DNA from: Stappia sp. TSB10P1A
GTDB taxonomy: Bacteria > Pseudomonadota > Alphaproteobacteria > Rhizobiales > Stappiaceae
Direction: 5' to 3'
Assembly (NCBI RefSeq): GCF_900185725.1
Contig: NZ_FYAU01000036.1
Coordinates: 434,001-498,000, forward strand
Length of the DNA: 64,000 bases
Notes under the pieces: generated by a model
What the model was told of the DNA's origin: nothing
Databases searched by the model: none
The model's input: the letters and a program-made list of their open reading frames with translations, nothing else
Position numbers and translations under genes: made by a program
Shown here: positions 22,541 to 54,389 of the stretch, in pieces
How the letters are laid out: each line of letters begins with the position of its first letter
Position numbering within the stretch: the first letter of the stretch is position 1

Positions 22541-25500
22541 GAGGTCGTCTCCCTTTCCTGCCCCTGCGGGGCCTCGATATTCAAGGCAGCGCGCACCGAA
22601 TTGCGCCGCGGCCGCCACAGGTCGCGCTCGACCGCCTCGCGGAAGCGCGCCTCGATTTCCTCCAGCGCCTTCGGATTGGCCTCGCCCAAGAAGGCGCGGA
22701 CCTCGCCGTCGTCCAGATAGGCATCATAGAGCTGGTCGAAGTGATGGTCGCCCACCGCATTGGTGGTGGCGGCAAAGGCGAAGAGATAGTCCACCGTCGC
22801 GGCGATCTCGAACGCGCCCTTGTAGCCGTGGCGCATGACGCCGGCGATCCACTTCGGATTGGCGGCGCGCGCCCGCACCACCCGGCCGATCTCCTCCGAC
22901 AGGGTGCGGATCACCGGGCGCTCGGGGCGCGAATGGTCGTTGTGATAGACCTTCGGCGCCGTGCCCTTCAGCGTTTCCACCGTCGCGGCGAGCCCGCCCT
23001 CGAACTGGTAGTAGTCGTCGCTGTCGAGCAGGTCGTGCTCGCGGTTGTCCTGGTTGTGCAGCACCGCGTCGACCTGCGACAGGCGCGCGGTCAGGCTGGC
23101 GCGCGCGCCCTCGCCCTTCGCCCCGCCGCCATAGGCGTAGGAGCCCCAGGCGAGGAACGCGTCGGCGAAGTCCGCGCGGGCCTCCCAGAGCCGCTCGTCG
23201 ATCAAGGCCTGCAGGCCGGCGCCATAGGCACCGGGCTTCGAGCCGAAGACGCGGTAGAGCGCCTGCCGGCGGGCCTTTTCCGGCGCAAGGCCGTCCGCCT
23301 CCAGCCGGGCGGCTTCCTTGCGGGCGCGCGCGGCGAGCGGATTGGCGTCCTGCGGCTCCTCCAGCGCGGCGATGGCGGCGACCGCCGACTGGAACAGGTC
23401 GACCTGATGCGGGAAGGCATCGCGGAAGAAGCCGGAGATGCGCAGCGTCACGTCGACGCGCGGCCGGCCGAGCTCGGCGAGCGACAGAATGTCGAAGCCG
23501 GTGACGCGGCCCGAGCCCGCCTCCCATTTCGGCCGGGCGCCGATCAGCGCCAGCGCCTGGGCGATGTCGTCGCCGCCGGTGCGCATGTTGGCCGTGCCCC
23601 AGCAGGTCAGCACGACGGCGGCCGGATACTCGCCCTCGTCCTGGAAATGCCGCTCGACCAGCCGCTCGGCGCTGGCCGCACCGATGCGCCAGGAGGTCTC
23701 GGTCGGCACGGCGCGCACATCGACGGAGTAGAAATTGCGGCCCGTCGGCAGCACATCGGGGCGCCCGCGCGTCGGCGCGCCGGACGGGCCCGGCGGCACG
23801 AAGCGCCCGGCAAGCCCGGCAAGAACGCCGGCGGTCTCGGCGTCCCCCGAAGCAGTGACGGCCGGGCGGATGCGGGTCGTAATCTCCTCCAGCACGGCGG
23901 CGGTGGCGGCAAAGCCATCCGGCGCGCGGCCCTCCTCCACCAGCTTTGCCGCCAGCAGTTCCAGCCGCTCCACCGTGTCGCCGCAACTGCGCCAGGGGCT
24001 GCTTGCCACCTCTTCAAGCAGCACCGGGCGCGGGCCGTCGAAGGGCAGTTCGTAGGCGCAGGCGAGCGGATCGAAGCCCTCGAGCCCCAGATCGCGGGCA
24101 AGCGCCCGGGTGATGCCCTCATGCGCCGGCCCCTCGCCGCGCGGCACCCGCACCAGCGCCACCAGGAGCGCGGTCAGCAGATCGCCACCAGGTGCAGCAC
24201 CCAGAACGTGCAGCCCGTCGCGGATCTGCAACTCCTTCAGGTCGCACAGATGCGCATCGAGCCGGGCGAGCCGCGTCTCCTCGTCCATCTCGCTGGTCAG
24301 GCCGATATCGCGGTCGAGGCCGTGCCGTTCCGCCGCCTCGAGAATGTCGCGGGTCAGCGCCTTCAGCCGGCGCGGATCGACACCCTGCGCCAGGTAATAT
24401 TCGTCGAGCAGCACTTCCAGCTCGGCGGCGACGCCGTGGCTTTCGGCCCGCGCCAGCGGCGGCGTCAGGTGATCGACGATGACGGCGGAGGTGCGGCGCT
24501 TGGCCTGTGCCCCCTCGCCCGGATCGTTGACGATGAAGGGATAGATGTTGGGCAGCGGCCCGAGCACCGCTTCCGGGAAACAGTTTTCGGAGAGCGCCAG
24601 CGCCTTGCCCGGCAGCCATTCGAGATTGCCGTGCTTGCCCAGATGCACCACGGCATGGGTGCCGAATGTCTCGCGCAGCCAGATGTAGAAGGCGAAATAG
24701 TGGTGCGGCGGCACCAGATCCGGGTCGTGATAGGTCGCCTTGGGGTCGATGTTGTAGCCGCGCGCCGGCTGGATGCCGACGACCGCATTGCCAAAGCGCG
24801 TCACGGCGAGGCGGAACGCGCCCTCCTCCACATGCGGATCGTCTTGCGCCGCGCCCCAGCGGGCCGTGACCGCCTCGCGCACCGCCTGCGGCAGCCGGGC
24901 GAAGAAGGCGGCATAGTCGGCGAGCGAAAGCTCAGCGCCGCCATGGCGCACGCGGCGGGCAGCGATGTCGTTGGTCGGGCCGTCGCTGATCCGCGCCATC
25001 AGCTCGGCAGAGCCCTGCGGCGCGCCGTCGATGCGGTAGCCCTCGGCGGCAAGCGCCTGCAACAGGCGCGCGCAGGAGGCCGGCGTGTCGAGGCCGACGC
25101 CATTGGCAAGGCGCCCGTCCTTGTTGGGATAGTTGGCAAGGATCAGCGCCACCTTGCGCTCCGCCGCCGGGGTCGCGGCGAGGCGGGCGATCCGCGCGGC
25201 CTGGGCGGCGACGAAGGCCACCCGGTCGGGTTTCGGCACGAAGCGCATGGTCGCCGACTGGGTGAGCGGATCGTGCGGCGCCTGCTCCTTGAAGGAGACG
25301 GCGCGGGTGAGAATGCGCCCGTCCACCTCCGGCATCACCACATGCATGGCGAGATCGCGGATCGAAAGGCCTTGGTCGGCGTCGCGCCAGCCCTCTTCCG
25401 AGGACGAGGAGAACACCACCTGCAACACCGGCACGCCAGGTGCATCGAGCGGCGTTCCGCTGTGCGCCTCGCCGGCCTTCGACACGGCGAAGGCGGTGGC

Positions 25501-26295
25501 GTTGAGCACCACGGCGGGCGGCGCCTCGGCGAACAGCGCGGCGAGGACGGAGGCGGATTCGGCCTCCTTCAGCGAGGAGACGAAGACCGGCAGCGGGTTG
25601 ATGCCCTCGCACGCCAGCGCCGTGCACAGGGCCTCGACCGGCGCGGTCGCCGCGCTCTGCATCAATGCCTTGTAGAAGACGATGGCGGCGACGGGGGCGG
25701 CCGGATCAGTCCAGGTCGCCCGCAGGTCGGCGAGCGTCGGGTGGGCACGGCCGGGCAGCAGCAGGCCGGCGCGCGGCAGCGGGCGCGGCGGATCGGGCTC
25801 ACTCGCGCCATCCAGAAGATGCGCGGCGTAGCGCAGGAAGTTGCGAAGGTTTTCCGCCCCGCCTTCGGCGAGATAGCGCCACAGGCACCTCACCTCGTCG
25901 ACCGGCAGCGTGGAGCGGGCGGCAAGGTCCGCGTCCCAGCGGTCGTCCCCCGGCATCACCGCCAGATGCAGGCCGTGGCCGCGCGCCGCCTCGGTCAGCC
26001 GCTCGACGCCATAGGGCCAGTATTCCGCCCCTCCGAGCAGGCGCAGCACGACGAGCCGCGAGCCCGCCACCGTCTGCTCGGCATACATGTCGACCGAATA
26101 GGGGTGCGACAGGGCCATCAGGTTGGCAAGCCGCAGGCTCGGCTGCCCCGCCCCGCCCCCTGCTGCCACGGAGGCGAGCGAGGCGAGTTCCGTGTCGGCC
26201 GCCGACAGCACCACCACATCGGCCGGCGACTGGCCGAGATCGACCGCCTCGTCGCCCTGGTCGATGCGTCCGCTGCGCCCCGCGAGAATATGCAT
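22537..26295 (-). CDS. cobN: Aerobic cobaltochelatase large subunit CobN
   Basis: Catalytic subunit of the ATP-dependent cobalt chelatase (with CobS and CobT, not in this window) that inserts cobalt into hydrogenobyrinic acid a,c-diamide. The 1252-residue length matches the family. Seen along the chain: '[17 protein letters not shown]' near 90-105, '[14 protein letters not shown]' near 210, '[33 protein letters not shown]' pieces near 390-420, '[22 protein letters not shown]' near 545, '[13 protein letters not shown]' near 860, '[24 protein letters not shown]' pieces near 905, and '[22 protein letters not shown]' pieces near 1110. The start at ATG 26295 ([20 protein letters not shown]) is family-typical. 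It is 42 bases after cobW. Confidence 0.97.
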
Positions 26296-26337
26296 GCCGT
26301 CTCCTGCGCTGTCGCCGTATCTGGCCTGCCGTATGGA

Positions 26338-27456
26338 TCAGGCGGCGAGCGCGCTGGCGAGCAGACCCTCGACGCGGGCGAGGTCGAAGCCGGCAAGGCC
26401 GATCACCACGACCCGGCCGGGGGCGCGCGCGTCGCGCGCGAACCATGCCTCGACGCGCGGGCCGACCGCCTGCACCATCGCCGGCGCGGCCTTGCCCTCG
26501 ATCCCGACCGCGCCCTTGATGCGCAGCACGCCGGGCACCGCCATGGCGGCGGCGACGCGCGCCTCCAGATCCTTCAGCGAGGCGAGCGGGGCGAGCTCGA
26601 CCACATGGCTGACGAAGTCGTCGTGGTCGTGATGATGATGGTCATGATCGTGGTCGTGGTCGTCATGATCGTGATCGTCGTGGTCGTGGTCGTCATCGTC
26701 GTGGTGATGATGCTCGTGATGGCTCTCGCGCCCGTGCATGTCGTCTTCCGAGGCGCTCATCCGGCCGAGCAGCACGTCGGCGGCAAGCATGCCCTTTTCC
26801 GCCGCGACGATCTCCACCGCCGCGCGGACGCGTCCGGCGACTTCGGCCCGCACCCGCTCCAGCGTTGCCGCGTCGACGAGGTCGGCCTTGTTCAGCACCA
26901 CCAGATCGGCGCAGACGAGCTGGTCCTCGAACAGTTCCTCCACCGGGCTGTCGTGGTCCAGCGCCTCGTCGGCGGCACGCTGCGCGGCCAGCGCCGCCTC
27001 GTCGCCGGTCACACGCCCTTCCGCGACGGCTGCGGCATCCACCACCGTCACCACCGCATCGACTGTCACCCGGGTCTTGACGCTCGGCCAGGAGAAGGCG
27101 CGCACCAGCGGCTGCGGCAGGGCAAGGCCCGAGGTCTCGATGACGATATGGTCCGGTGCCTCGTCGCGGGCGATCAACATCTCCATCGTCGGCAGGAAGT
27201 CGTCGGCGACGGTGCAGCAAATGCAGCCATTGGTCAGCTCCACCACCTCTTCGGCGGCGCAGTCCGGATCGGCGCAGCCGTCGACCAGCGAGCCATCGAA
27301 GCCCATGTCGCCGAACTCGTTGACGATGAGGGCGATGCGCTTGCCCTTCGCCTCGCGCAGCAGGTTGGCGAGCAGCGTCGTCTTGCCGGCGCCGAGGAAG
27401 CCGGTGACGATGGTGGCCGGGATCTTGCCGGCGGTGCGGGGCGTGGATGCGGTCAT
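26338..27456 (-). CDS. cobW: CobW, G3E GTPase / metal chaperone of cobalamin synthesis
   Basis: GTPase thought to deliver cobalt to the chelatase. The 372 residues contain P-loop GFLGAGKT (19-26), the metal-binding CxCC in 'ELTNGCICCTVADDF' (Cys 78, 80, 81), 'IETSGLALPQPLVRAF', the guanine motif NKAD (189-192) and a C-terminal CobW_C domain. Between the two lies a striking His/Asp-only loop at about residues 241-284 (HHEHHHHDDDDHDHDD and similar), likely a metal reservoir or chaperone arm. The ATG (27456-27454) overlaps the cobP stop, implying translational coupling. The ordering cobP-cobW-cobN is common in alphaproteobacteria. Confidence 0.96.
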   Translation of the reverse strand: MTASTPRTAGKIPATIVTGFLGAGKTTLLANLLREAKGKRIALIVNEFGDMGFDGSLVDGCADPDCAAEEVVELTNGCICCTVADDFLPTMEMLIARDEAPDHIVIETSGLALPQPLVRAFSWPSVKTRVTVDAVVTVVDAAAVAEGRVTGDEAALAAQRAADEALDHDSPVEELFEDQLVCADLVVLNKADLVDAATLERVRAEVAGRVRAAVEIVAAEKGMLAADVLLGRMSASEDDMHGRESHHEHHHHDDDDHDHDDHDHDDHDHDHDHHHHDHDDFVSHVVELAPLASLKDLEARVAAAMAVPGVLRIKGAVGIEGKAAPAMVQAVGPRVEAWFARDARAPGRVVVIGLAGFDLARVEGLLASALAA

Positions 27457-28034
27457 AGGCGGATCTCCGGCTGGAGGTGGGATGGCTTGAGAACGAGCGG
27501 CAGGCCGGCGGCGACAAGCACCGCTACATCGGCGAGTTCCGCGATGCGGCGATTGAGGCGACCCTGCTCGTCGCGAAAGCGGCGGGCGAGCGCATTATCG
27601 GGCACGATGCCCGAGCCGACCTCGTTGGTGACGAGAACGATCGGGCCGGGCGCGGCGCGCAGCGCCCCGGCGAGCCGGGCCGTCTCCGCTTCCGGATCGG
27701 CCTCGGCGAAAATCAGATTGCTGAGCCACAGGGTCAGGCAGTCGACGAGGATGGCGCGATGCGCCGTGCTCTCGGCGGCGAGGACGCCGGCAAGGTCGCG
27801 CGGCTCCTCGATGGTCCGCCAGCCCTCGCCCCGCTGGTCGCGGTGGCGGTCGATGCGCTGGCGCATCTCCTCGTCATGGGGCGTGCAGGTGGCGACATAG
27901 ACGCACTCGCGCGCCGACGCGCGCACCAGCCCCTCGGCATAAAGGCTCTTGCCCGAGCGCGCGCCGCCCGTCACCAGCACGGTGCGGGCCGCGACAGGAG
28001 CCGGGGCGGTTGGCGAATCGGATGCGCCGCTCAC
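27453..28034 (-). CDS. cobP: Adenosylcobinamide kinase / guanylyltransferase CobP (CobU)
   Basis: Bifunctional enzyme that phosphorylates adenosylcobinamide and converts it to the GDP derivative. Read from GTG 28034 it has 193 residues: P-loop 'LVTGGARSGKSLYAEGLV' (about 20-37), 'YVATCTPHDEEMRQRIDRH' containing the guanylated His region, 'VDCLTLWLSNLIF', and 'LVTNEVGSGIVPDNALARRFRDE', all hallmark CobU blocks. A TTG at 28040 is an alternative start. GTG 28034 is preferred because it overlaps the stop of a short upstream ORF that has a near-perfect Shine-Dalgarno sequence, while cobP has none of its own. It is the first enzyme gene of the riboswitch operon. Confidence 0.93.
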   Translation of the reverse strand: MSGASDSPTAPAPVAARTVLVTGGARSGKSLYAEGLVRASARECVYVATCTPHDEEMRQRIDRHRDQRGEGWRTIEEPRDLAGVLAAESTAHRAILVDCLTLWLSNLIFAEADPEAETARLAGALRAAPGPIVLVTNEVGSGIVPDNALARRFRDEQGRLNRRIAELADVAVLVAAGLPLVLKPSHLQPEIRL

Positions 28035-28102
28035 GCGCAAGCCGTCCGGCAGCGGGATATGCCGGGAGGGCTGAAGCGGCGGGCGCCCTTCAACGGGAAC
28101 AT
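28031..28102 (-). CDS. 23-codon leader ORF between B12 riboswitch and cobP
   Basis: ATG 28102-28100 is preceded by AGGAGG (28113-28108) with 5-base spacing, the best ribosome binding site in this operon. The frame encodes MFPLKGARRFSPPGISRCRT followed by ACA, and its TGA (28033-28031) overlaps the GTG of cobP. A hairpin (GCCGTC at 28114-28119 with GACGGC at 28125-28130) lies immediately upstream of the Shine-Dalgarno sequence. The peptide resembles nothing I know. The likely role is translational coupling: ribosomes loaded at this site, and controlled by the riboswitch, would reinitiate at cobP. It could also be a chance ORF; conservation would decide. Confidence 0.55.
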   Translation of the reverse strand: MFPLKGARRFSPPGISRCRTACA

Positions 28103-28159
28103 TCTGGCCTCCTGCCGTCCACCCGACGGCGCGTGACGTTTCGGGCCGGGCCCCTTCAC

Positions 28160-28360
28160 GGGGGCTCGGGTGATCCGGCTCGTCTCCTGGCTCGCGGGTC
28201 GCGGCCTTGCCCTGCCCTTCCCGGACCGAAAGGCCCAGTGGTTCATGCAGGAAGGCTCGCCGCTCACAGTTGCGGGGGCAGCTACGGATTCGGGAGCCCG
28301 ACTTGGGTCCTCCCCCACCGTATTCCGACTTTCCCCTTTCACCGGACTTCGTCCGTCAGA
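28160..28360 (-). promoter_or_regulatory. Cobalamin (B12) riboswitch upstream of cobP-cobW-cobN-cobO-cobQ
   Basis: Read on the minus strand, the B12 box GCTGCCCCCGCAACTGTGA sits at about 28282-28264. It is preceded by an extended arm closed by TACGG...CCGTA, and followed by the ACCACTGGGCC segment (about 28240-28230) and the terminal GCGAGCCAGGAGACGAGC (about 28195-28178). These are the conserved blocks of the adenosylcobalamin aptamer in order. The region downstream holds a GCCCC/GGGGC hairpin without a T-run and then the leader ORF's Shine-Dalgarno sequence, suggesting control of translation initiation. Confidence 0.95.
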
Positions 28361-28572
28361 AAGGACCGGAAGATCACGACTCATAGCCTGCCGAAGGGGC
28401 CGGCGTCCAGCGGCGCGGCGTGGACGGCTCCGGGAAGCTTCCGCGGCGGCGCCCGCTCCACTCACAGCGGATGCGGCCGGATGCCCGCGGCTCTTGCCGG
28501 TGCAGCTTGCCGGTGCACGCTCCCCGCCCCTCGCCCGCTCCCCGACTGTGGAAAAGTTTTGCGACAAAGGGC

Positions 28573-28602
28573 TTGGCAAGCGGCGGCGCAGTTTGCTATA
28601 CG
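28573..28602 (+). promoter_or_regulatory. Probable promoter of tRNA-Asn
   Basis: TTGGCA (28573-28578) and TATACG (28597-28602) are separated by 18 bases and end about 40 bases before the tRNA. This is a reasonable housekeeping promoter. The stretch from the riboswitch to here (about 28361-28572) contains no gene that I can support. Confidence 0.5.
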
Positions 28603-28643
28603 CCTGCCACCGACGCGGTGCGGATGCCCCGCGTGTTTCGTGA

Positions 28644-28718
28644 TCCCCGGTAGCTCAGTGGTAGAGCAAGCGGCTGTTAACCGCTTGGTCGCTGGTTCGA
28701 ATCCGGCCCGGGGAGCCA
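28644..28718 (+). tRNA. tRNA-Asn (anticodon GTT)
   Basis: Acceptor TCCCCGG (28644-28650) pairs with CCGGGGA (28708-28714). The D-arm contains AGCTCAGTGGTAGAGC, the anticodon stem CAAGCGG/CCGCTTG surrounds CTGTTAA giving GTT, and the T-loop is GGTTCGAATCC. CCA is encoded at 28716-28718. Confidence 0.95.
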
Positions 28719-28806
28719 CTTCCTCCTTATTTTCCCAAAAATCCTCCAGTCTTCCCGAAAACATGCCTCGCCTGGCGATATCGGATCGCCGTGGCCGAAT
28801 GGGCTT

Positions 28807-28863
28807 TAGGTCGTGAATTCATAACTGTGCCGTCTCTCGCCGGACTTACGAGTTCACGACCTA
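28807..28863 (-). terminator. 11-base inverted repeat at the 3' end of the LysR gene
   Basis: TAGGTCGTGAA (28807-28817) and TTCACGACCTA (28853-28863) are perfect inverted copies 35 bases apart. The right arm contains the LysR stop codon. The loop is long and no T-run follows on the minus strand, so it may be an mRNA 3'-end hairpin or a recombination scar rather than a classical terminator. Confidence 0.5.
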
Positions 28864-29739
28864 CGCGCGTTCCTTCAGGAAGTCGACAAAGGCGCGCACG
28901 CGCGGAATGGCCTGGCGGCCAGGAAGCATCAGGGCGGAGATCGGCTTGGGATCCGCGTCGTGCTGTCCTTGGAACAGTTCAACGAGCTGCCCCTCGGCAA
29001 GCGCCTTCCTGCCGAGAAAGTCCCCAAGACGGATGATGCCGACGCCCTCGATCGCCATCTGCAACAGCGTATCGGCGCTGTCCGCGGTGACGCTCCCGCG
29101 GACGGGCGTCCGCACCACGGCTCCCTGCTCGATCATCGGCCAGTAGGCTTGGCCGGGAAACCCGGTCAGCAACAGACAGTCATGGCTCGCCAGGTCCTGG
29201 GCGGTCGTCGGTGTGCCGCGCCGTTCCAGATAGGCGGGGCTTGCGGCGATGACGCGGCGGACCGTGCCCAGGCGAGCCGCGATCAACTCGCTGTCGTCCA
29301 GCAGGCCGACGCGGATCGTCACGTCGATCTGCTCCTCGAACGGATCTATGCGGTGGTCGGAAACCGAAACCCCGACCGTCACTGCCGGATGCCGGCGCAG
29401 GAACGCCGGCAGCAGCGGCGCCAACCGGTGCCGCGCGAAGGCGGTGCCGCAATTGACGCGCAGATGGCCGCGAACCTCGCCGTGCCGGTGCGACAGGTCG
29501 ACCTCGGCCGCCTCTGCGAGCTTCAGCATGCGGCGAGCATAGCCGATGAAGACGGCGCCCTCCGGCGTGAAGGCAAGCCGACGGGTCGAGCGGTGCACGA
29601 GCTTGATGCCGGTGCGCTTCTCCAGGCGCGACACCATGCGGGACACGCCCGACGGCGTCATCCCCGTCTCCTCGGCGACAGCCGCCAGGGTGCCCAGATC
29701 GGCCAGCCGCAGGAGCAGGATGACTTCGGGTGCGAGCAT
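28861..29739 (-). CDS. LysR family regulator, divergent from the twin oxygenase genes
   Basis: Transcription factor of 292 residues from ATG 29739 (CAGGGATCC upstream). The frame is open to 29832, but a possible promoter (-10 at 29820-29815) lies at that point, so longer starts would precede the transcript. The N-terminal winged HTH is 'LGTLAAVAEETGMTPSGVSRMVSRLEKRTGIKLVHRSTRRLAFTPEG' (described by its ends, about residues 12-58). The substrate-binding domain follows, from 'GHLRVNCGTAFARHRLAPLLP' to 'LMLPGRQAIPRVRAFVDFL'. The divergent layout suggests it controls the two Fe/2OG oxygenases and the MFS carrier and senses a compound of that pathway. Confidence 0.9.
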   Translation of the reverse strand: MLAPEVILLLRLADLGTLAAVAEETGMTPSGVSRMVSRLEKRTGIKLVHRSTRRLAFTPEGAVFIGYARRMLKLAEAAEVDLSHRHGEVRGHLRVNCGTAFARHRLAPLLPAFLRRHPAVTVGVSVSDHRIDPFEEQIDVTIRVGLLDDSELIAARLGTVRRVIAASPAYLERRGTPTTAQDLASHDCLLLTGFPGQAYWPMIEQGAVVRTPVRGSVTADSADTLLQMAIEGVGIIRLGDFLGRKALAEGQLVELFQGQHDADPKPISALMLPGRQAIPRVRAFVDFLKERA

Positions 29740-29814
29740 GGATCCCTGCTGCATTCGTGACGTAGCGGCACGACAGAGTTGCGGCCGGAGCGGCTGCCTC
29801 TGCGGCGCATTCAT

Positions 29815-29845
29815 ACTATAGGTTGCACCCATAAAAACCAGTCAA
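29815..29845 (-). promoter_or_regulatory. Possible promoter of the LysR gene, within the divergent control region
   Basis: On the minus strand, TTGACT (29845-29840) and TATAGT (29820-29815) are 19 bases apart, slightly long. A small inverted repeat GGTTG (29821-29825) and CAACC (29843-29847) overlaps it and could be part of a LysR operator. Confidence 0.4.
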
Positions 29846-29946
29846 CCGCATGCTCCGGCACGCAACCGGCCACCTGGCCGGGCTGCTGGTCACGACTGCA
29901 CGTGCAAGGCTCCGGACCAGAACGCAACGAAGTATGAGGAGGCGAC

Positions 29947-30789
29947 ATGGATACTGCATTGTCCACTGAAGTCGAACGCTTCGAGGCCAGCCCGGCGTCC
30001 GGCGGCTTGCCCTATGTGTTGCATACCGACAAGTACGGCCTGAACAGCGAGCATTTCAAGGCACTCGCCAGGGGCGAGGTCCGCGTGATCCGGGTTGCGG
30101 CCTTTGCGAACGGTCCGTCCTGCGAACTGATCTCTCGGGGGCAGGCCTCCCTCGGTTTCGAGCCCTACATCAACGTCTCGGAGGTCCGCAAGATCGGCAT
30201 GGCCTTCTACGAGACCGAGCTCAAGCCCGAACTGATCGAGCGCTATTTCGTGGTCGCGCGGGAGCATCTGAACGATTTCCGCAAGGCCTGCGAGCCGTAC
30301 GGGTCGCCCCTCGACACGCTGCGCGGCATTCTCGACGAGATCTGGCCGGCGGGTGCAAACCTGCAGACGCTGTTCGGCCGCAAGATGTTCGTCGGCCTGT
30401 CGCGGATGGTGGAGCCGAACACGACGTTCCTCGCCCACCATGACATCTTCTCCGAGGATGCTCCGGGCATCGAGGAAGCGGAATCGCTGCTCGCCCAGTT
30501 CGCCGCCAACATCTACTTCCAGGTCCCCGAAGTGGGCGGCGAACTGCTGATGTGGCATCGCAACATGACGACGGAGGAATTCGACCGCAGGCGCCGGGGC
30601 AAATACGGCATCGCCGTCGAGGACCTGCCGACGCCCGACGTCATCGTCAAGCCCGGACGGGGCGACCTGCTGATCTTCGATTCCCGCAAGATCCACGCGG
30701 TCGCTTCGCCGCACGATACGGCGCGCATGGCCGTGTCCTTCTTCATCGGCTATCGCGGCGACGACCAGCCGCTCACCTACTGGAGCTGA
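29947..30789 (+). CDS. Fe(II)/2-oxoglutarate-dependent oxygenase, copy 1 of a tandem pair
   Basis: 280-residue double-stranded beta-helix oxygenase; ATG 29947 follows AGGAGGCGAC. The metal triad is visible as H164-x-D166 in 'FLAHHDIFSED' and H250 in 'SRKIHAV', with R260 ten residues later (TARMAVSFFIGYRG) positioned to bind the 2-oxoglutarate carboxylate. Other blocks are 'TLFGRKMFVGLSR' (141-153) and 'VGGELLMWH' (196-204). The carboxylate ligand Asp is present, so a hydroxylase-type reaction is expected rather than the halogenase variant that has Gly or Ala there. The next gene is a paralogue with the same blocks. The substrate is unknown; a free amino acid or similar small metabolite is an inference. 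Confidence 0.85.
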   Translation: MDTALSTEVERFEASPASGGLPYVLHTDKYGLNSEHFKALARGEVRVIRVAAFANGPSCELISRGQASLGFEPYINVSEVRKIGMAFYETELKPELIERYFVVAREHLNDFRKACEPYGSPLDTLRGILDEIWPAGANLQTLFGRKMFVGLSRMVEPNTTFLAHHDIFSEDAPGIEEAESLLAQFAANIYFQVPEVGGELLMWHRNMTTEEFDRRRRGKYGIAVEDLPTPDVIVKPGRGDLLIFDSRKIHAVASPHDTARMAVSFFIGYRGDDQPLTYWS

Positions 30790-30793
30790 CGCC

Positions 30794-31609
30794 ATGACCC
30801 TTGCCCGTCCCGATGTCTCGTCCGCCGCCCCGATCGATCCCGTGCGCGTCGCCCCCACCCTCTCGCTGGACGACGTCCTGGCCCTGATCCGCAACGAGAT
30901 CCAGGTCCTGCGCGTGCCGGAGTTCATTTCCGCCGAGGCGTGCCGGACCATCTCGCAAGGACTGAAGTCCACCGGCTATAGCGACTATCTCAACGCTCCC
31001 AAGGTCGGCCGGATCGGCATGTCCTATTTCGAAACAGGCCGCAAGCCGGAGATCATCGAGCACTATTTCGCCACCGCGCTCGACAATCTCAACCTGCTGC
31101 GCAGGGCCTGCGATCCCTATCCCTGCCCGATGGACACATTCCGCTGCGTCATGGACGAGACCTGGGGCGCCGGCTGCACGCTGCAGACGCTCTACGGCCG
31201 CAAGATGTTCGTCGGCCTGTCGCGCTGCATGAAGCCGGGCATTCCCCTCAAGGCTCACCACGACATGTTCGGCCGCCATGCCCCCGACACGCCGGAGGCC
31301 GCGTCCCTGATCAGCCAGTTCGGCATCAACATCTATGTCGATGTCCCCGAGACGGGCGGCGAACTGGCGATGTGGCAGGACGAACTGTCGGACGCGGAGT
31401 TCCTCGATCAGCGCGGCGACGACTATGCGATCCCGCTGGAGAACCTTCCGCCCTGCAACTATTCGGCAAAGCCGGAGAATGGCGACCTGATCCTGTTCAA
31501 TGCGCGCAAGCTGCATGCGGTGCTGCCCGGCGAGGGCATCGACCGCCTGACGATCTCGGGCTTTCTCGGCTACCGGGGAGACAGGGAGCCGCTGACGGTA
31601 TGGAGCTGA
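30794..31609 (+). CDS. Fe(II)/2-oxoglutarate-dependent oxygenase, copy 2 of a tandem pair
   Basis: 271-residue paralogue of the preceding gene, starting 4 bases after its stop. The triad is H155-x-D157 ('KAHHDMFGRH'), H241 ('ARKLHAV') and R251 ('IDRLTISGFLGYRG'). Shared blocks with copy 1 are TL.GRKMFVGLSR, AHHD.F, GGEL.MW, the GDL..F..RK.HAV strand pair and the C-terminal GYRGD..PLT.WS. N-termini and the regions between blocks differ clearly, so this is an old duplication with probable specialisation: two positions, two substrates, or a heteromer. Its last 10 bases overlap the MFS gene. Confidence 0.85.
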   Translation: MTLARPDVSSAAPIDPVRVAPTLSLDDVLALIRNEIQVLRVPEFISAEACRTISQGLKSTGYSDYLNAPKVGRIGMSYFETGRKPEIIEHYFATALDNLNLLRRACDPYPCPMDTFRCVMDETWGAGCTLQTLYGRKMFVGLSRCMKPGIPLKAHHDMFGRHAPDTPEAASLISQFGINIYVDVPETGGELAMWQDELSDAEFLDQRGDDYAIPLENLPPCNYSAKPENGDLILFNARKLHAVLPGEGIDRLTISGFLGYRGDREPLTVWS

Positions 31610-32877
31610 CCCGCCCTGCGGCGAGCAAGGGTCACCTGGGCGCCGCCGTCCTGGTGATCTTTGCCGCCGGATACCTGCTGTCCTCGCTGTTGCGCGGCGT
31701 CACCGCCGCGCTCGCCCCCATGTTCACCGAGCAGTTCGCCCTGTCCGCCGGCGAACTCGGCTTGCTTGCCGGATCCTATTTCGCCTCTTTCGCGTTCCTG
31801 CAACTGCCGATGGGGGCCCTGCTCGACCGGTTCGGCGTGCGCGCCGTGCTGGTGGTCTCGCTCGCCACCGCCGCGTTGTCCTGCGTCCTGTTCGCCGTCG
31901 CGGACAGTTTCGAAGGCCTGTTCGGAGCGCGGCTGCTCACCGGCGTCGGCGTCAGCGCCTGCCTGATCGCCCCCCTCACGGCCGCCCGCCTGTGGACGAC
32001 GCCGGCGCTGCAGCAGCGGCTCAACTCGTGGATGCTGATGGCCGGAGCGCTCGGGCTGATCCTCGGCACGCTGCCGTCCGAAAGCCTCGCCTCACGCTTC
32101 GGCTGGCCGATGCTATTCCTCGTTCTGGGGGGGCTGTTCGCGGCCGTCGCGCTGCTGGTCGCGCTGCAGGCACCGGGGCATCGCCCGGCCGCCGGGGTGC
32201 CGCCGCATGGCATCCTGCGTGGCTATGCGTCGATCGTGCGGACCGCGCATATCTGGCGGATCGGGGCCCTCGGCTTTTTCAACTACGCGATCCTCGTCGC
32301 CGTGCAGACCCTGTGGATCGGGCCATGGCTGACGCAAGTCATGGGCGAAAGCCCGCGCGGTGCGGCACTGGAGCTGCTCTACATCAACGTGATCATGCTC
32401 TTCGTGTTCCTGGTCATGGGCTATCTGTCGCCGCGATTTCTCGCCAGCGCCGAGGACGGGGAGCAGGTGTTGCGGCGCTGGACGCCGGCCAGCATCGTCC
32501 TGCTCGTCGTCATTGCCGCCCTCGGCGCCCGCGCCGACTGGTATCTGTTTGCGCTGTTCTGCGTTGCCGCCTGGCCGCTCTCGGTGACACATCCGCTCGT
32601 CGGCCAGAGGTCGCAGCCCGCCGAGGCCGGGCGCGCCATCGCCTTCTTCAACCTGCTGCTGTTCGTCGGCGTGTTCCTGTGGCAATGGGGCTTCGGCGCC
32701 CTGGTGTCCGCCCTCGCCCCGGAAGTCGGCGTCGAGGCTGCCTATCGGCTCGCGGTCGGCGCGCTGGCCGCCCTGTCCCTTGCCGGCTATCTGGTGTTTG
32801 TCACCGGCGCGCGGGTCGTCACCATCCGTGCGCAGGACGCACGCCCGGCCGCCTCCCCGGTCAAGGACCGGTCCTGA
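31600..32877 (+). CDS. MFS transporter of the twin-oxygenase module
   Basis: 425-residue major facilitator carrier with about 12 membrane helices. The first half shows 'LGLLAGSYFASFAFLQLPMGALLDRFGVRAVLV', containing the MFS motif-A loop GALLDRFGVR; a cytoplasmic loop lies near residues 195-210. ATG 31600 overlaps the end of the upstream oxygenase gene (stop 31609), so the two are translationally coupled and the carrier very likely handles the oxygenases' substrate or product. Direction of transport is not evident. It is convergent with tspO, 27 bases away. Confidence 0.88.
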   Translation: MELTRPAASKGHLGAAVLVIFAAGYLLSSLLRGVTAALAPMFTEQFALSAGELGLLAGSYFASFAFLQLPMGALLDRFGVRAVLVVSLATAALSCVLFAVADSFEGLFGARLLTGVGVSACLIAPLTAARLWTTPALQQRLNSWMLMAGALGLILGTLPSESLASRFGWPMLFLVLGGLFAAVALLVALQAPGHRPAAGVPPHGILRGYASIVRTAHIWRIGALGFFNYAILVAVQTLWIGPWLTQVMGESPRGAALELLYINVIMLFVFLVMGYLSPRFLASAEDGEQVLRRWTPASIVLLVVIAALGARADWYLFALFCVAAWPLSVTHPLVGQRSQPAEAGRAIAFFNLLLFVGVFLWQWGFGALVSALAPEVGVEAAYRLAVGALAALSLAGYLVFVTGARVVTIRAQDARPAASPVKDRS

Positions 32878-32904
32878 TCGGGCGGCGGAGGTCTTGCGTT
32901 TACC

Positions 32905-33378
32905 TCACTCCTCCCGGTTCAGCCGCCAGATCGAGAAGTTCAGCGCGACGGCGAAGCTGACCCAGGCGAGATAGGGCACCAGCAGCAGCGCCGCGAGCAT
33001 GTGCACCGGCCAGAACAGCAGGATCGTCGCGATGATCGACAGCCACACCAGCACGATGTCGATCATGCCGAGATCCGGGCGGTGCAGGCCGAAGAACAGC
33101 GGCGTCCAGGCGCCGTTGAGCACAAGCTGGAGGCCGTAGAGGGCGAGCGGCAGCGCCGCGCCGGCAAAGCCCGCCTCGCGCCACACCAGCCAGCCGGAGA
33201 CCGCGATCATCACGTAGAGCACCGTCCAGACCGGCGGGAACAGCCGGTTGGGCGGGCGCCAGGCCGGCTTTTTCAGCCGCTCGTACCATTCACCGGGGCG
33301 GAACAGCGCGCCGGTCAGGGCGGCAAGGAAACAGGCTGCCAGAAACCCCAGCAGAGCCGGCAGGGTGGACATGTCCAT
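32905..33378 (-). CDS. tspO: TspO/MBR family tryptophan-rich sensory protein
   Basis: Five-helix membrane protein of 157 residues that binds porphyrins and related ligands; in Rhodobacter TspO is an outer-membrane regulator of tetrapyrrole-linked gene expression. Hallmarks are 'WYERLKKPAWRPPNRLFPPVWTVLYVMIAVSGW' (the tryptophan- and proline-rich signature after helix 1, described by its ends), 'LNGAWTPLFFGLHRPDLGMIDI' and the final 'PYLAWVSFAVALNFSIWRLN'. The start is ATG 33378 (MDMSTL), with ATG 33372 as an alternative. It has no operon partner. Confidence 0.95.
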   Translation of the reverse strand: MDMSTLPALLGFLAACFLAALTGALFRPGEWYERLKKPAWRPPNRLFPPVWTVLYVMIAVSGWLVWREAGFAGAALPLALYGLQLVLNGAWTPLFFGLHRPDLGMIDIVLVWLSIIATILLFWPVHMLAALLLVPYLAWVSFAVALNFSIWRLNREE

Positions 33379-33443
33379 GAGCTTTGCCTCGACATTTCAC
33401 GAAGTACGGCGCTGGGGAGCGGGCCCCCATGCCAGGTCAGCGC

Positions 33444-33469
33444 CCTGCAGGTTCCCTTGTCGCTGCAGG
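33444..33469. repeat. Inverted repeat between DUF4287 gene and tspO
   Basis: CCTGCAG (33444-33450) and CTGCAGG (33463-33469) are inverted copies with a 12-base loop. The hairpin lies downstream of the DUF4287 stop and upstream of tspO on the minus strand. It could be a weak terminator or a tspO operator. Confidence 0.4.
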
Positions 33470-33519
33470 ACACGATCGCGAGACTGACAGGTTCCGCCGG
33501 CCGCGCAAGACGCCCGCCC

Positions 33520-33753
33520 TCACCTGTCCTCGGCGAGCGTATGGGCGACCAGCGCATTGGCATGCCCGTGGCCGAGCCCGTGGGTCGCCTTCAGCCAGGC
33601 GACGAGTTCCATGTGCTTGAGGCCGGATTGCGCACGGATCAGGGCCTTCCACTCGGCGATGGGGCGGCCGTATTTCTTTTCGATGGACGGGAAATAGGAG
33701 GCCGGTCCCTTGACGGTCCCCTTCACCGGCGGCTTGCCTTCGGATGACGACAT
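33520..33753 (-). CDS. Small DUF4287 domain protein
   Basis: 77-residue protein; ATG 33753-33751 is preceded by AAAGGAGACGGGGC. The whole C-terminal part is the DUF4287 domain: 'SYFPSIEKKYGRPIAEWKALI' then 'LKHMELVAWLKATHGLGHGHANALVAH'. The function is not known. The gene is 13 bases downstream of a cupin gene on the same strand, so the two probably share a transcript controlled from the MarR operator region. Confidence 0.88.
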   Translation of the reverse strand: MSSSEGKPPVKGTVKGPASYFPSIEKKYGRPIAEWKALIRAQSGLKHMELVAWLKATHGLGHGHANALVAHTLAEDR

Positions 33754-33766
33754 GCCCCGTCTCCTT

Positions 33767-34159
33767 TCACAGGTCCTGCTGGCGGATCGTCTCGGACGGG
33801 TGGATGCAGACCAACTCCAGTTGCTCCGTCCCCACGTTGAGATAGCGATGCGGCACATCGGCCGGCGCGACGACGATGTCGCCGGCAAAGGCGCGCAGCC
33901 GCTCGTCGCCGACCAGGAATTCCGCCGCGCCTTTGCGCACCACCCAGGTCTCCCGATAGGGGTGGACATGCAGTTGCGAGCCGGTGCCCGGCGCGCTGTC
34001 GGTGATGAACATGGACACCGGCGAGCCGTAGTCCTTCCCCTCGAAACGCACCGTCGGGCTTTCGCCCGGAACCGGCGAGCGATGGCGGCGGACCGAGATA
34101 TCGGGCCGTCCGGCATCCTCGGCAAAGGCCTGCGCCGAGGCGTGAACACTGGCTGTCAT
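33767..34159 (-). CDS. Small cupin domain protein
   Basis: 130-residue single-domain cupin; ATG 34159-34157 follows GGGAGGGATTGCC. Metal-site motifs are 'SQLHVHPYRETWVVRKGAAEFLVG' (H-x-H with the downstream Glu) and 'VVAPADVPHRYLNVG' (second His). The role could be a sugar/amino-acid isomerase, quercetinase-like enzyme or sensor; nothing fixes it. It is divergent from a MarR regulator across a palindrome-rich control region, which suggests repression by that protein. Confidence 0.87.
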   Translation of the reverse strand: MTASVHASAQAFAEDAGRPDISVRRHRSPVPGESPTVRFEGKDYGSPVSMFITDSAPGTGSQLHVHPYRETWVVRKGAAEFLVGDERLRAFAGDIVVAPADVPHRYLNVGTEQLELVCIHPSETIRQQDL

Positions 34160-34177
34160 GGCAATCCCTCCCGCATT

Positions 34178-34233
34178 TATCTTGACGAGAAGATACTTCC
34201 AAAGATTTGTCTTTGCGTCAAGATAATTATCTT
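34178..34233. promoter_or_regulatory. Repeated MarR-type operator between cupin and marR genes
   Basis: TATCTT (34178-34183) and AAGATA (34190-34195) form one inverted repeat. AAAGA/TCTTT (34201-34214) forms a second. AAGATAATTATCTT (34220-34233) is a perfect 14-base palindrome. In addition TATCTTGACG (34178-34187) is repeated inverted as CGTCAAGATA (34216-34225). The AT-rich cluster sits midway between the divergent start codons and probably binds the MarR protein at two or more sites. Confidence 0.75.
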
Positions 34234-34300
34234 GATATCGAGAGACTGAACCCGGGAGCCGCCCTTGAGCAGCGGGCGGGGTCCCGACGTGGGGGATGTC

Positions 34301-34804
34301 ATGGCGGATCATATCGACAGGTTGCGGGCGCAATGGGCGCGGGAACTGCCGGATCTCGACACCGAGCCGATGGCGATCCTCGGCCGGGCGCGCAGGCTGA
34401 CGCTGCTGGCCGGCGGCAGCATCGAGAAGATCTTCGCGGGCTACGGGCTCGACCGCGGCGAGTTCGACGTGATCTCGACCCTGCGCCGCGCCGGCCCGCC
34501 CTACCGGCTGACGCCGACCGAGCTCTATTCGACGCTGATGATCTCCTCCGGCGGGCTGACGCACCGGCTCGGGCGGCTGGAGACGGCCGGGCTGATCGCG
34601 CGTGAAAAATCCGCGCGCGACGGGCGCAGCCTCGAAGTGGTGCTGACCCCGGCCGGCCGCGCGCTGGCGGAAGAGGCCTTCCGGGCGGATATGGCGAACG
34701 AGGCGCGGTATCTCGCGCATCTTGCCCCGGCCGAGCGCGAGACGCTGGCCGGCTTGCTGCGCAAGCTGCTGGAGGAGATCGAGGCGCCGGGCGGCGGCGC
34801 CTGA
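34301..34804 (+). CDS. MarR family transcriptional regulator
   Basis: 167-residue winged-helix regulator. ATG 34301 is preceded by GGGGGATGTC; an in-frame TTG at 34265 would add 12 residues. The DNA-binding core is 'LDRGEFDVISTLRRAGPPYRLTPTELYSTLMISSGGLTHRLGRLETAGLI' (ends given; about residues 45-95), with the wing 'REKSARDGRSLEVVLTPAGRALAEEAF'. MarR proteins usually repress their own gene and a divergent target, and the palindrome cluster at 34178-34233 fits that. The ligand is unknown. Confidence 0.92.
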   Translation: MADHIDRLRAQWARELPDLDTEPMAILGRARRLTLLAGGSIEKIFAGYGLDRGEFDVISTLRRAGPPYRLTPTELYSTLMISSGGLTHRLGRLETAGLIAREKSARDGRSLEVVLTPAGRALAEEAFRADMANEARYLAHLAPAERETLAGLLRKLLEEIEAPGGGA

Positions 34805-34849
34805 CCGGCTCCCGCCTCAGCCAGTCGTCAGGCGACGGTCAGACAGCGG

Positions 34850-35743
34850 TCAGGCGGCGGTCAGGCGGATGCGGGTGCCCCAGGGATCGGCAAGGGTGAG
34901 CCCGTCGCCGCCGGCCGCGACATCCAGCCCGGCCTTGCCGGCGGCATCGGCGATCGCACCGAGCCGGTCCGTCTCGCGCAGCACGATCTGCAGTTCGGCA
35001 AGGCCGGTGCAGCCGGCTTTGCGCGGCCCCGCGCCCCGGCTGTTCCAGATGTTGCCGGCAAGCTGGTGGTGATAGCCGCCCGAGCCGTAGAAGCTGGCGC
35101 CCGGATAGCGGGTGGCAATATCGAAGCCGAGCAGCGCCGAATAGAAGGCATCGGCGATGTCGGTGGCGCCGACCTGCAGATGCACATGGCCGACCAGCGT
35201 GCCGGCCGGCGCGCCGTGCCACGCCGTCCCGGCCGCCTCCGCCAGCAGCGAAGGCGCATCCAGCGGGTCGGTCGACATGACGATCGCGCCGGTCGCATCC
35301 GTCCAGACGGACGGCGCGCGGTCGGCATAGATCTCGACGCCGTTGCCTTCCGGATCGGCGAGATAGACCGCCTCGCTGACCTTGTGGTCGGACGCGCCCT
35401 GCAGCCGCAGGCCGCGCTCGGCGGCAAAGGCGAGCCAGCGGCCGAGATCGGCGCGCGAGGGCAGCAGGAAGGCGGTGTGGAAGAGGCCCGCCTCAGACCG
35501 CGACGCAGGGACGAGGCCGGCATCGCCGCGCAGGCGCAGCAAGGGCACCCCGCCGGCGCCGAGCAGCGCCTCACGGCCGTCGGAGCCGAGATCCTCGAGC
35601 CCCAGGACCTCGCGATAGAACGCAGCGACGCGCGCGCTGTCGCGCACCGCCAGCGTCACCAGGCCGACGCGCAGCGGCGCCGCCGCCATGTCGAAACGGT
35701 CGCCCTGCACGGCGGTCCGGCTGTCGAGAGAGATGGCGGGCAT
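34850..35743 (-). CDS. Two-domain VOC protein, catechol-2,3-dioxygenase (CatE) like
   Basis: 297 residues with two VOC modules, the arrangement of extradiol dioxygenases. Domain 1 runs about 25-140 (VGLVTLAVRDSARVAAFYREVLGL, 'GLFHTAFLLPSRADLGRWLAF', 'DPEGNGVEIYADR'). Domain 2 runs about 180-295 ('TLVGHVHLQVGATDIADAFY', 'LLGFDIATRYPGASFYGSGGYHHQLAGNIW', ends given). His and Glu residues at the metal-site positions (HTAF, GHVHLQV, EIY) are present. The B. subtilis relative CatE cleaves catechol, but the substrate here is not proven. The gene stands alone between marR (convergent) and a chemoreceptor. Confidence 0.86.
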   Translation of the reverse strand: MPAISLDSRTAVQGDRFDMAAAPLRVGLVTLAVRDSARVAAFYREVLGLEDLGSDGREALLGAGGVPLLRLRGDAGLVPASRSEAGLFHTAFLLPSRADLGRWLAFAAERGLRLQGASDHKVSEAVYLADPEGNGVEIYADRAPSVWTDATGAIVMSTDPLDAPSLLAEAAGTAWHGAPAGTLVGHVHLQVGATDIADAFYSALLGFDIATRYPGASFYGSGGYHHQLAGNIWNSRGAGPRKAGCTGLAELQIVLRETDRLGAIADAAGKAGLDVAAGGDGLTLADPWGTRIRLTAA

Positions 35744-53587: not shown

Positions 53588-53675
53588 GGTGGGTGATCCT
53601 CGCCCCGGCGGGTGGTTGATTGCCGGTGCCGATCGGATAGGCTGGCGCTCCTGCCGGAATCATCGGGGATTTCTC

Positions 53676-54389
53676 ATGACGGATCTGCTTTTTCGAGACG
53701 ATGCCTATCTGCGCAGTTGCGATGCGCGGGTCACCGCCATCACCGACCGCGGCGGCCTCGTTCTCGACCGGACCGTCTTCTATGCCGCCGGCGGCGGCCA
53801 GCCGGGCGACAGCGGCCGGATCGAGCTTTCCGACGGCCGCCAGATCGCGATTCCCACCACCGTCTATGGCGAGGACCGCAGCCAGATCGTCCATGTCCCG
53901 GCCGAGGGCGAGGCGCTTCCCGCCGTCGGCGAGGCCATCGTTCTGCATCTCGACTGGGACCGCCGCTACCGGTTGATGCGCGTGCACACCGCCCTGCACC
54001 TGCTCTCCGTCGTCCTGCCCTTCCCCGTCACCGGCGGCCAGATCGGCGAGGGCGAGGGCCGGCTCGACTTCGACATTCCCGACGGCAGCCCGGACAAGGA
54101 CGAGGTCGCGGCGAAGGTCAACGAGATCGCCGCCGCCGATCATGCCGTCACCACCGACTGGATCACCGACGAGGAGCTGCTCGCCAAGCCCGAGATGGTC
54201 AAGACCATGAGCGTCAAGCCGCCGATGGGCAGCGGCCGCGTGCGGCTGGTTCGCATCGGTGATGTCGACCTGCAGCCCTGCGGCGGCACCCATGTCAGCC
54301 GCACCTCGGAGATCGGCCCGCTCATCGTCACCAAGATCGAGAAGAAGGGCCGCCAGAACCGGCGCGTGCGCATCCAGCTCGCCGACTGA
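53676..54389 (+). CDS. Alanyl-tRNA editing protein (AlaX type)
   Basis: Free-standing editing domain that hydrolyses Ser- or Gly-tRNA(Ala). The 237 residues have both metal-binding motifs: H104-x3-H108 in 'RVHTALHLLSV' and C202-x3-H206 in 'LQPCGGTHVSRTSEIG'. The N-terminal beta-barrel part is 'VFYAAGGGQPGDSGRI'. The frame is open from 53589, but ATG 53676 (GGGGATTTCTC upstream) matches the family N-terminus MTDLLFRDDAYL. sseA follows 49 bases later on the same strand and may be cotranscribed. Confidence 0.92.
   Translation: MTDLLFRDDAYLRSCDARVTAITDRGGLVLDRTVFYAAGGGQPGDSGRIELSDGRQIAIPTTVYGEDRSQIVHVPAEGEALPAVGEAIVLHLDWDRRYRLMRVHTALHLLSVVLPFPVTGGQIGEGEGRLDFDIPDGSPDKDEVAAKVNEIAAADHAVTTDWITDEELLAKPEMVKTMSVKPPMGSGRVRLVRIGDVDLQPCGGTHVSRTSEIGPLIVTKIEKKGRQNRRVRIQLAD

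Follow-up and report, generated by a model that had tools for sequence, protein, structure and literature searches.

A candidate mobile cassette of a LysR regulator, twin Fe(II)/2-oxoglutarate oxygenases and an MFS transporter in Stappia sp. TSB10P1A that may act on a free amino acid

Two consecutive hydroxylations of a free amino acid by Fe(II)/2-oxoglutarate (2OG) oxygenases are known from the Hil operon of Pantoea ananatis, in which HilA and then HilB convert L-isoleucine to 4′-hydroxyisoleucine and further to 4,4′-dihydroxyisoleucine; according to the part of the source on which we draw, the genes of Hil operons in various species include LysR, transporters (RhtA, MFS), and PALP (PMC3684760). 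In Streptomyces that produce 4-fluorothreonine, toxicity is handled by a trans-acting tRNA deacylase and a transporter (FthB/FthC), again as given in the portion of the report used here (PMC7162832). Here, we analyzed a window of 64,000 nt from Stappia sp. TSB10P1A (contig NZ_FYAU01000036.1, positions 434,001 to 498,000), i.e., the whole stretch of DNA to which positions refer below unless another locus is named. It carries a compact cassette of four genes, in which two tandem Fe(II)/2OG oxygenases (ox1 and ox2) and an MFS transporter are divergent from a LysR-type regulator. Among the papers listed by searches of the open-licence PubMed Central literature, none was recognized as describing this cassette, as judged from titles and the starts of abstracts. 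We consider it somewhat probable that the cassette is a mobile unit that makes and exports an oxidized free amino acid.

Catalytic residues and closest relatives of the twin oxygenases

The original prediction, made from the sequence of the window, described two tandem paralogous oxygenases with full facial triads, and this description stands. The two proteins share 47.8% identity over 249 amino acids (aa) (E = 9.6e-90, far above chance), and the catalytic residues of each (Table 1) are invariant in an alignment of nine sequences. In a broader alignment, the triad and arginine columns are conserved in all 37 rows, those of ox1 and ox2 among them. Both enzymes thus have the HxD…H triad and the 2OG-binding arginine on the expected fold, i.e., the features of an Fe(II)/2OG oxygenase, and both match the Pfam family 2OG-FeII_Oxy_3 (E = 3e-7 for ox1 and 2.2e-6 for ox2).

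Specifically, AlphaFold2 models of ox1 and ox2 (mean predicted local distance difference test [pLDDT] scores of 74.9 and 75.3) found the carrier-independent halogenase WelO5 as their best structural match (E = 9.5e-11 and 1.1e-11, respectively; TM about 0.6–0.7), followed by the amino acid dioxygenase SadA (E = 1.9e-8 and 4.0e-8). A profile built from nine sequences also finds WelO5 (3e-7) and SadA (6e-4). The C-terminal part matches the Pfam family WelO5 (PF22814) above the cut-off of 27 bits for ox2 (35.2 bits) and below it for ox1 (23.9 bits), and the only NCBIfam match, a weak one, is HilA (E = 0.014 for ox1 and 0.004 for ox2). The original prediction had proposed checking whether either enzyme closely resembles a family with a known substrate; no characterized oxygenase with close identity was found, the solved relatives WelO5 and SadA showing 15–19% identity in the fold alignments.

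In Fe/2OG halogenases of the WelO5 type, the triad carboxylate is replaced by Gly or Ala, which makes room for the halide, and a carboxylate at this position favors hydroxylation. Because ox1, ox2, and all 37 aligned rows retain Asp there, a halogenase identity was rejected and hydroxylation is favored over halogenation, as had been argued from the ligand in the original prediction. The WelO5 structures among the structural matches include a G166D variant; G166 is probably the site of the missing carboxylate.

The closest relatives of ox1 and ox2 form a group of single-copy oxygenases, termed oxS here. A tree of 37 rows (5 of ox1, 6 of ox2, and 21 of oxS) recovers ox1 and ox2 as groups with support of 100/99 each, and ox1, ox2, and oxS together form one clade in this tree (100/97) as well as in a 29-row tree (100/99). 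The approximately unbiased (AU) test leaves oxS monophyly unsettled (p-AU = 0.36 with oxS forced as one clade). Differences fixed between the ox1 and ox2 groups amount to 24 positions; of those where the ten oxS sequences are unanimous, their residue is shared by ox1 at six (86, 88, 155, 161, 167, and 171) and by ox2 at four (77, 81, 245, and 255). Four of the six in ox1 surround the HxD motif, which weakly hints that ox1 may retain more of the oxS metal-site surroundings than ox2; position 156 runs the other way, as most oxS share the ox2 residue there.

The flanks of oxS were read at 11 loci, comprising 5 of the 12 genomes with a match in one genus, 3 from another family, and single loci in genome G527, on an Acinetobacter johnsonii plasmid, and on a Photobacterium replicon. 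A further locus (L039), a fragmented near-copy of L038 that shows pieces of the exporter, AlaX, and LysR genes, was left out of the count. A LysE/RhtC-like exporter gene adjoins oxS in all 11 loci, an AlaX-like tRNA-editing gene in 10, and a divergent LysR gene related to that of genome G730 in 6. The AlaX-like proteins retain HxxxH and CGGTH in nine of nine aligned sequences, and HxxxH and CxxxH are, we assume, the zinc/editing motifs of AlaX-type proteins. Among the AlaX-like proteins scanned, three of five scored above the PF07973 cut-off and two below, and three of three matched NF040865 below its cut-off. The one exporter scanned against PF01810 scored above the cut-off, and for two of two exporters the best matches were TIGR00949 (homoserine/threonine efflux) and the RhtC models, yet below cut-off. 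Since oxS adjoins these two genes, the substrate is probably a free amino acid, and the oxidized product would be exported and possibly toxic to translation, which suggests that it mimics an amino acid and that cells need protection from it. The original prediction had proposed a free small molecule; the neighbors of oxS narrow this to a probable amino acid.

As to where else relatives occur, an AlaX–oxygenase–LysE trio lies beside mobilization genes on a 6.4-kb mobilizable Acinetobacter johnsonii plasmid (L037; NZ_CP068209.1), and an Achromobacter plasmid record of identical length was a match as well. One more distant member (L041:7019–7813) lies on an Azospirillum plasmid, by eye beside genes for a branched-chain aminotransferase and an acyl-homoserine-lactone synthase, and another (L040:9001–9852) in a polyketide synthase locus of Dolichospermum.

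Recurrence, insertion and layout of the cassette

A peptide-pattern scan of one genome per species (84,980 species), sensitive to close relatives alone, yielded four confirmed loci whose ox2 relative has 70–79% identity: Rhizobium sp. FKY42 (L016), Pseudovibrio hongkongensis (L017), and two beta-proteobacteria, i.e., Noviherbaspirillum denitrificans (L018) and a Rhodocyclaceae metagenome-assembled genome (L019). Genome G1127, from a Rhizobium-type family, supplied a fifth locus besides the window (L093). In all six loci holding ox2 of this cassette, the window included, ox1, ox2, and the MFS gene are adjacent, with ox1 of L019 split over two open reading frames (ORFs). A divergent LysR gene adjoins the trio in the window, L016, L017, and L093, the latter three being 58–69% identical to that of the window; no LysR gene is adjacent in L018, and the contig of L019 starts 633 bases before ox1. 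The 4-base gap between ox1 and ox2 and the 10-base overlap of ox2 with the MFS gene are identical in L016, L093, and L017. As L016 and L093 share 97–98% identity, they are not independent; their dN/dS ratios are 0.18 for LysR, 0.11 for ox1, 0.11 for ox2, and 0.20 for the MFS gene.

Twin copies were also counted in overlapping genome samples, each including the window's own genome or the genome at the sample's center. The own genome was the sole case in 1 of 61, 1 of 397 (order), and 1 of 398 (phylum) genomes. The Rhizobium-type family yielded 1 of 297 (G1127), and its member G1174 shows two low-identity fragments, one with a stop. The sample around G1127 yielded 2 of 300 (G1127 and G1392, the latter taken as the same strain as L016 on account of the same contig coordinates), and two further samples yielded none (0 of 197 and 0 of 194). 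The cassette is therefore rare, has a patchy distribution, and reappears as one unit, for which horizontal transfer appears to be the simplest reading. The linkage of the genes in related genomes, on which the original prediction had partly staked its case, thus holds for the adjacency of ox1, ox2, and the MFS gene, unrelated genomes included, but not within the genus, where 13 other genomes contain no close ox1 relative and only matches at 33–38% identity (11 of the 13). Two of these matches, when checked, proved 73 and 92% identical to a third relative of ox1 and ox2 (35%) in the window's own genome (L046:7478–8251; G000:C49:274480). This paralogue was rejected as the source of the pair, as it branches outside the clade of ox1, ox2, and oxS; it adjoins genes for an IucA/IucC-type siderophore synthetase and a protein like a lysine/ornithine or histamine N-monooxygenase. 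The ox1 and ox2 groups branch alike internally, and the one point of disagreement, the relative order of the window and Pseudovibrio, depends on a weak ox2 fork (92/57); co-inheritance of the pair rests mainly on the adjacency in six of six loci.

Within the genus, the cassette is an insertion. When positions 26338–35743 were searched against same-genus genomes, the left and right flanks matched side by side, i.e., as an empty site, in three of them (G002, G005, and G008). The left-flank match ends just past a tRNA-Asn gene (at 28744, 28720, and 28740, respectively), the right-flank match begins at 32894 in all three, and 41, 66, and 47 unrelated bases lie between the flanks. Among the matches listed, no other same-genus genome shows an equally clean empty site. 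LysR, ox1, ox2, and the MFS gene are the sole genes of the ~4.15-kb insert, in keeping with the predicted compact module that lacks a nonribosomal peptide synthetase, polyketide synthase, or ligase. The G+C content of the insert is 66.5% (63.6% for ox1 and 64.5% for ox2) versus 68.9% for the window. In genome G003, ~4.3 kb of different DNA separates this tRNA from the point where shared sequence resumes (L136; G003:C13:29000–36500) and contains none of the cassette proteins; since other genes stand there in place of the cassette, the site following tRNA-Asn may be a hotspot of insertion. By eye, the G003 stretch encodes a TetR-like regulator, two short-chain dehydrogenases, and a hydrolase.

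As for how the cassette may have moved, no integrase was seen within the insert. A 57-base imperfect hairpin at its left end (28807–28863) is part of a repeat family that resembles a miniature inverted-repeat transposable element; partial copies gave 30, 10, and 7 matches (E up to 0.1) in G002, G005, and G008, plus 4 more in the window's own genome. In Pseudovibrio, the cassette fills a 4448-base contig (L017:1–4448) bounded on both sides by perfect inverted repeats of 90 bases, and the same genome has a 91-base copy and a 44-base part of this repeat at other places; these terminal repeats fit flanking mobile elements, although the ends of short-read contigs can look alike. A phage or viral origin was rejected, as no relatives were found in phage records and none were confirmed by one scan of viral contigs.

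Table 1. Features of the cassette and its immediate flanks (window positions)
Feature	Position	Strand	Comment
tRNA-Asn (gtt)	28644–28718	+	Directly left of the insertion
Insertion with the whole cassette	28745–32893		Absent from three same-genus genomes; left edge uncertain, 28721–28745
LysR-type regulator	28861–29739	−	Assigned by Pfam; listed ORF extends to 29832, start at 29739 favored by relatives
Divergent intergenic region	29740–29946		Presumed target of the LysR regulator
ox1, Fe(II)/2OG oxygenase, 280 aa	29947–30789	+	Triad H164-x-D166/H250, R260
ox2, Fe(II)/2OG oxygenase, 271 aa	30794–31609	+	Triad H155-x-D157/H241, R251; gap to ox1 of 4 bases
MFS transporter	31600–32877	+	Overlaps ox2 by 10 bases; Pfam MFS_1
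tspO	32905–33378	−	Resident right flank, outside the cassette

The predicted 10-base overlap is exact when the MFS protein (MFS_1, E = 1.3e-30) starts at the ATG homologous to the start of its relatives, which gives 425 aa. The divergent arrangement of the LysR gene (LysR_substrate, E = 7e-39; HTH_1, E = 6.7e-14) was also predicted correctly. As the first residue of the LysR proteins in L016, L017, and L093 corresponds to Met32 of the listed ORF, translation of the LysR gene probably starts at 29739 instead of 29832, which would make the divergent intergenic region ~207 bp rather than 114. A scan of 28600–33500 found no sigma-70-like promoter site, and the divergent intergenic region contains no T-N11-A palindrome (LysR box) with at least 9 of 13 matches. 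Left of the tRNA, positions 22741–27900 hold a 1,719-codon open frame opposite genes that look by eye like cobN and CobW genes, presumably an artefact of high-GC composition.

Possible functions and competing explanations

If the cassette makes and exports an oxidized free amino acid, the LysR regulator would turn on the tightly spaced ox1-ox2-MFS operon, and one of the oxygenases would hydroxylate a small free L-amino acid using 2OG and O2. The other would oxidize the first product at a second position or via a second reaction type; the two different oxidations of the original prediction, sequential or regiospecific, are plausible. The MFS protein would then export the product, which may serve as an amino-acid antimetabolite or signal. 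Our guess is that the likeliest substrates have the small side chains handled by AlaX/RhtC-type proteins (Thr, Ser, Ala, Val, homoserine, or Ile-like). We tentatively extend this to a class of minimal antimetabolite cassettes, possible without being probable, that would combine an oxygenase of the WelO5/SadA fold, AlaX-type immunity, and an exporter; the window would represent a mobile two-oxygenase form with a doubly oxidized product, in which MFS replaces LysE and the editing immunity.

The odds of a cassette for making and exporting an oxidized amino acid rest on the context of oxS, and several observations weigh against it. The amino-acid substrate is transferred from oxS at 42–49% identity, where the substrate can change, and across a change of transporter. 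The counts of oxS neighbors are raw numbers, one oxS locus (L094) has no AlaX gene, and among 17 more distant oxygenase loci (read over stretches of 7–19 kb, some ended by contig ends), an AlaX-like neighbor occurs in 3 (L042, L099, and L105) and in none of the other 14. The cassette itself contains neither a LysE nor an AlaX gene, and AlaX was rejected as a cassette gene. A stand-alone AlaX-like gene, missed by a divergent AlaX query, does lie in the window at 53589–54389, ~21 kb right of the cassette; that query gave weak matches in G001, G002, and G008, and because those in G002 and G008 lie ~26 kb from the empty site, we judge this gene to be probably resident. The family matches of the MFS protein settle neither substrate nor direction. 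The structural models are mediocre (mean pLDDT about 75), with the WelO5 and SadA alignments at a root mean square deviation of 5.4–7.1 Å. Finally, ox1 joins ox2 as its sister with support of 93/90 (37 rows) and 88/94 (29 rows), unstarred in both trees and flagged as a long-branch join, and trees that unite oxS with ox1 (p = 0.31) or with ox2 (p = 0.26) survive the AU test. A sister relationship is thus favored, not proven, and the evidence falls short of establishing that the pair arose by duplication within the cassette.

The same genes could instead be catabolic, the MFS protein importing an amino acid or similar compound that the oxygenases hydroxylate and host enzymes degrade, with LysR sensing the substrate; we regard this as unlikely. 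LysR and MFS genes are common in catabolic loci, and a Ser/Thr-dehydratase-type PALP gene stands near two of the six twin loci, beginning 28 bases past the MFS gene in L018 and lying behind an oppositely oriented LysR gene in L019. A PALP gene, found in Hil operons too, is in line with production, yet it is equally compatible with catabolism, a further point against production. However, the window insertion contains neither PALP nor another degradative gene, the stretches read of L016, L017, and L093 contain no relative of this PALP, and the exporter and editing factor beside oxS suit production better than consumption. The only match in the window to the PALP of L018 and L019 (50982–51881), 18 kb outside the insertion, was not counted because its ORF looks by eye like a cysteine synthase. 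That the substrate is no amino acid at all, being a terpenoid, alkaloid, nucleoside, or other compound as for WelO5, and that the MFS protein is a self-protection pump seems quite improbable to us. WelO5 is the best fold match and its Pfam cut-off is exceeded by ox2, if not by ox1; the MFS protein weakly resembles the drug-efflux pump NorA; and some distant members sit in a polyketide synthase or siderophore locus. However, since only oxygenases, a regulator, and a transporter were inserted, the precursor would need to be a metabolite that widely differing hosts have in common, and genes for amino-acid exporters and tRNA editing accompany the closest relatives. Very unlikely, in our estimate, is a pair in which one enzyme alone has an independent reaction, as an obligate heterodimer or with a regulatory duplicate. 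Heterodimeric Fe/2OG pairs exist (TlxIJ, 7vbq, is among the structural matches), and the invariable adjacency of ox1 and ox2 would suit one, but both enzymes keep their catalytic residues in every aligned row and the loci of the single-copy oxS relatives have no partner oxygenase.

If the cassette does make and export an oxidized amino acid, then three or four genes would be enough for production of, tolerance to, and export of a new amino-acid antimetabolite, and such genes would move between alpha- and beta-proteobacteria. The tRNA-editing neighbor of the relatives would hint at the target, i.e., mischarging of a particular tRNA, so that the substrate could be guessed and tested, and a pair of related hydroxylases with different selectivity would be useful for biocatalysis.

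Comparison with known systems

The locus shares features with several described systems. The halogenases WelO5 and Wi-WelO15 (PF22814) provide the best fold match and the C-terminal sequence match to ox1 and ox2, but they have, as we take it, Gly where ox1 and ox2 have Asp, and no alkaloid genes are present in the insertion. SadA, an N-substituted L-amino acid dioxygenase of Burkholderia ambifaria (3w20 and 3w21), resembles ox1 and ox2 in fold, profile match, and amino-acid type of substrate, but differs from them in the low identity of the fold alignments, and its accessory genes are presumably not among the four inserted genes. The oxS loci share with FthB/FthC, as far as the part of that source used here describes them, the logic of a deacylase and a transporter beside the pathway of a toxic free amino acid, whereas the cassette in the window is without a deacylase.

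Tandem Fe/2OG oxygenases and a LysR gene are common to the cassette and the Hil operon, which in some members, as described in the part of its source cited above, also has a transporter (RhtA or MFS) and PALP; the claim of an undescribed pathway in the original prediction is weakened by this precedent, in which Fe/2OG enzymes hydroxylate a free amino acid twice in succession (PMC3684760). HilA is a PF13640 protein like ox1 and ox2. In contrast, HilB belongs to PF10014, whereas both enzymes here are PF13640/WelO5-like paralogues, and a search limited to the insertion found no HilC (PF00106) reductase, HilP (PF00497), HilD ligase, or PF10014 protein. Orthology of either enzyme to HilA was rejected, as the two score 14.7 and 16.5 bits with NF041274, a model whose cut-off is 500. 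Because the HilA score fails and PF10014, HilC, and HilP are not in the insertion, the cassette may work like Hil yet is not Hil, and the Hil operon is its closest known system and precedent.

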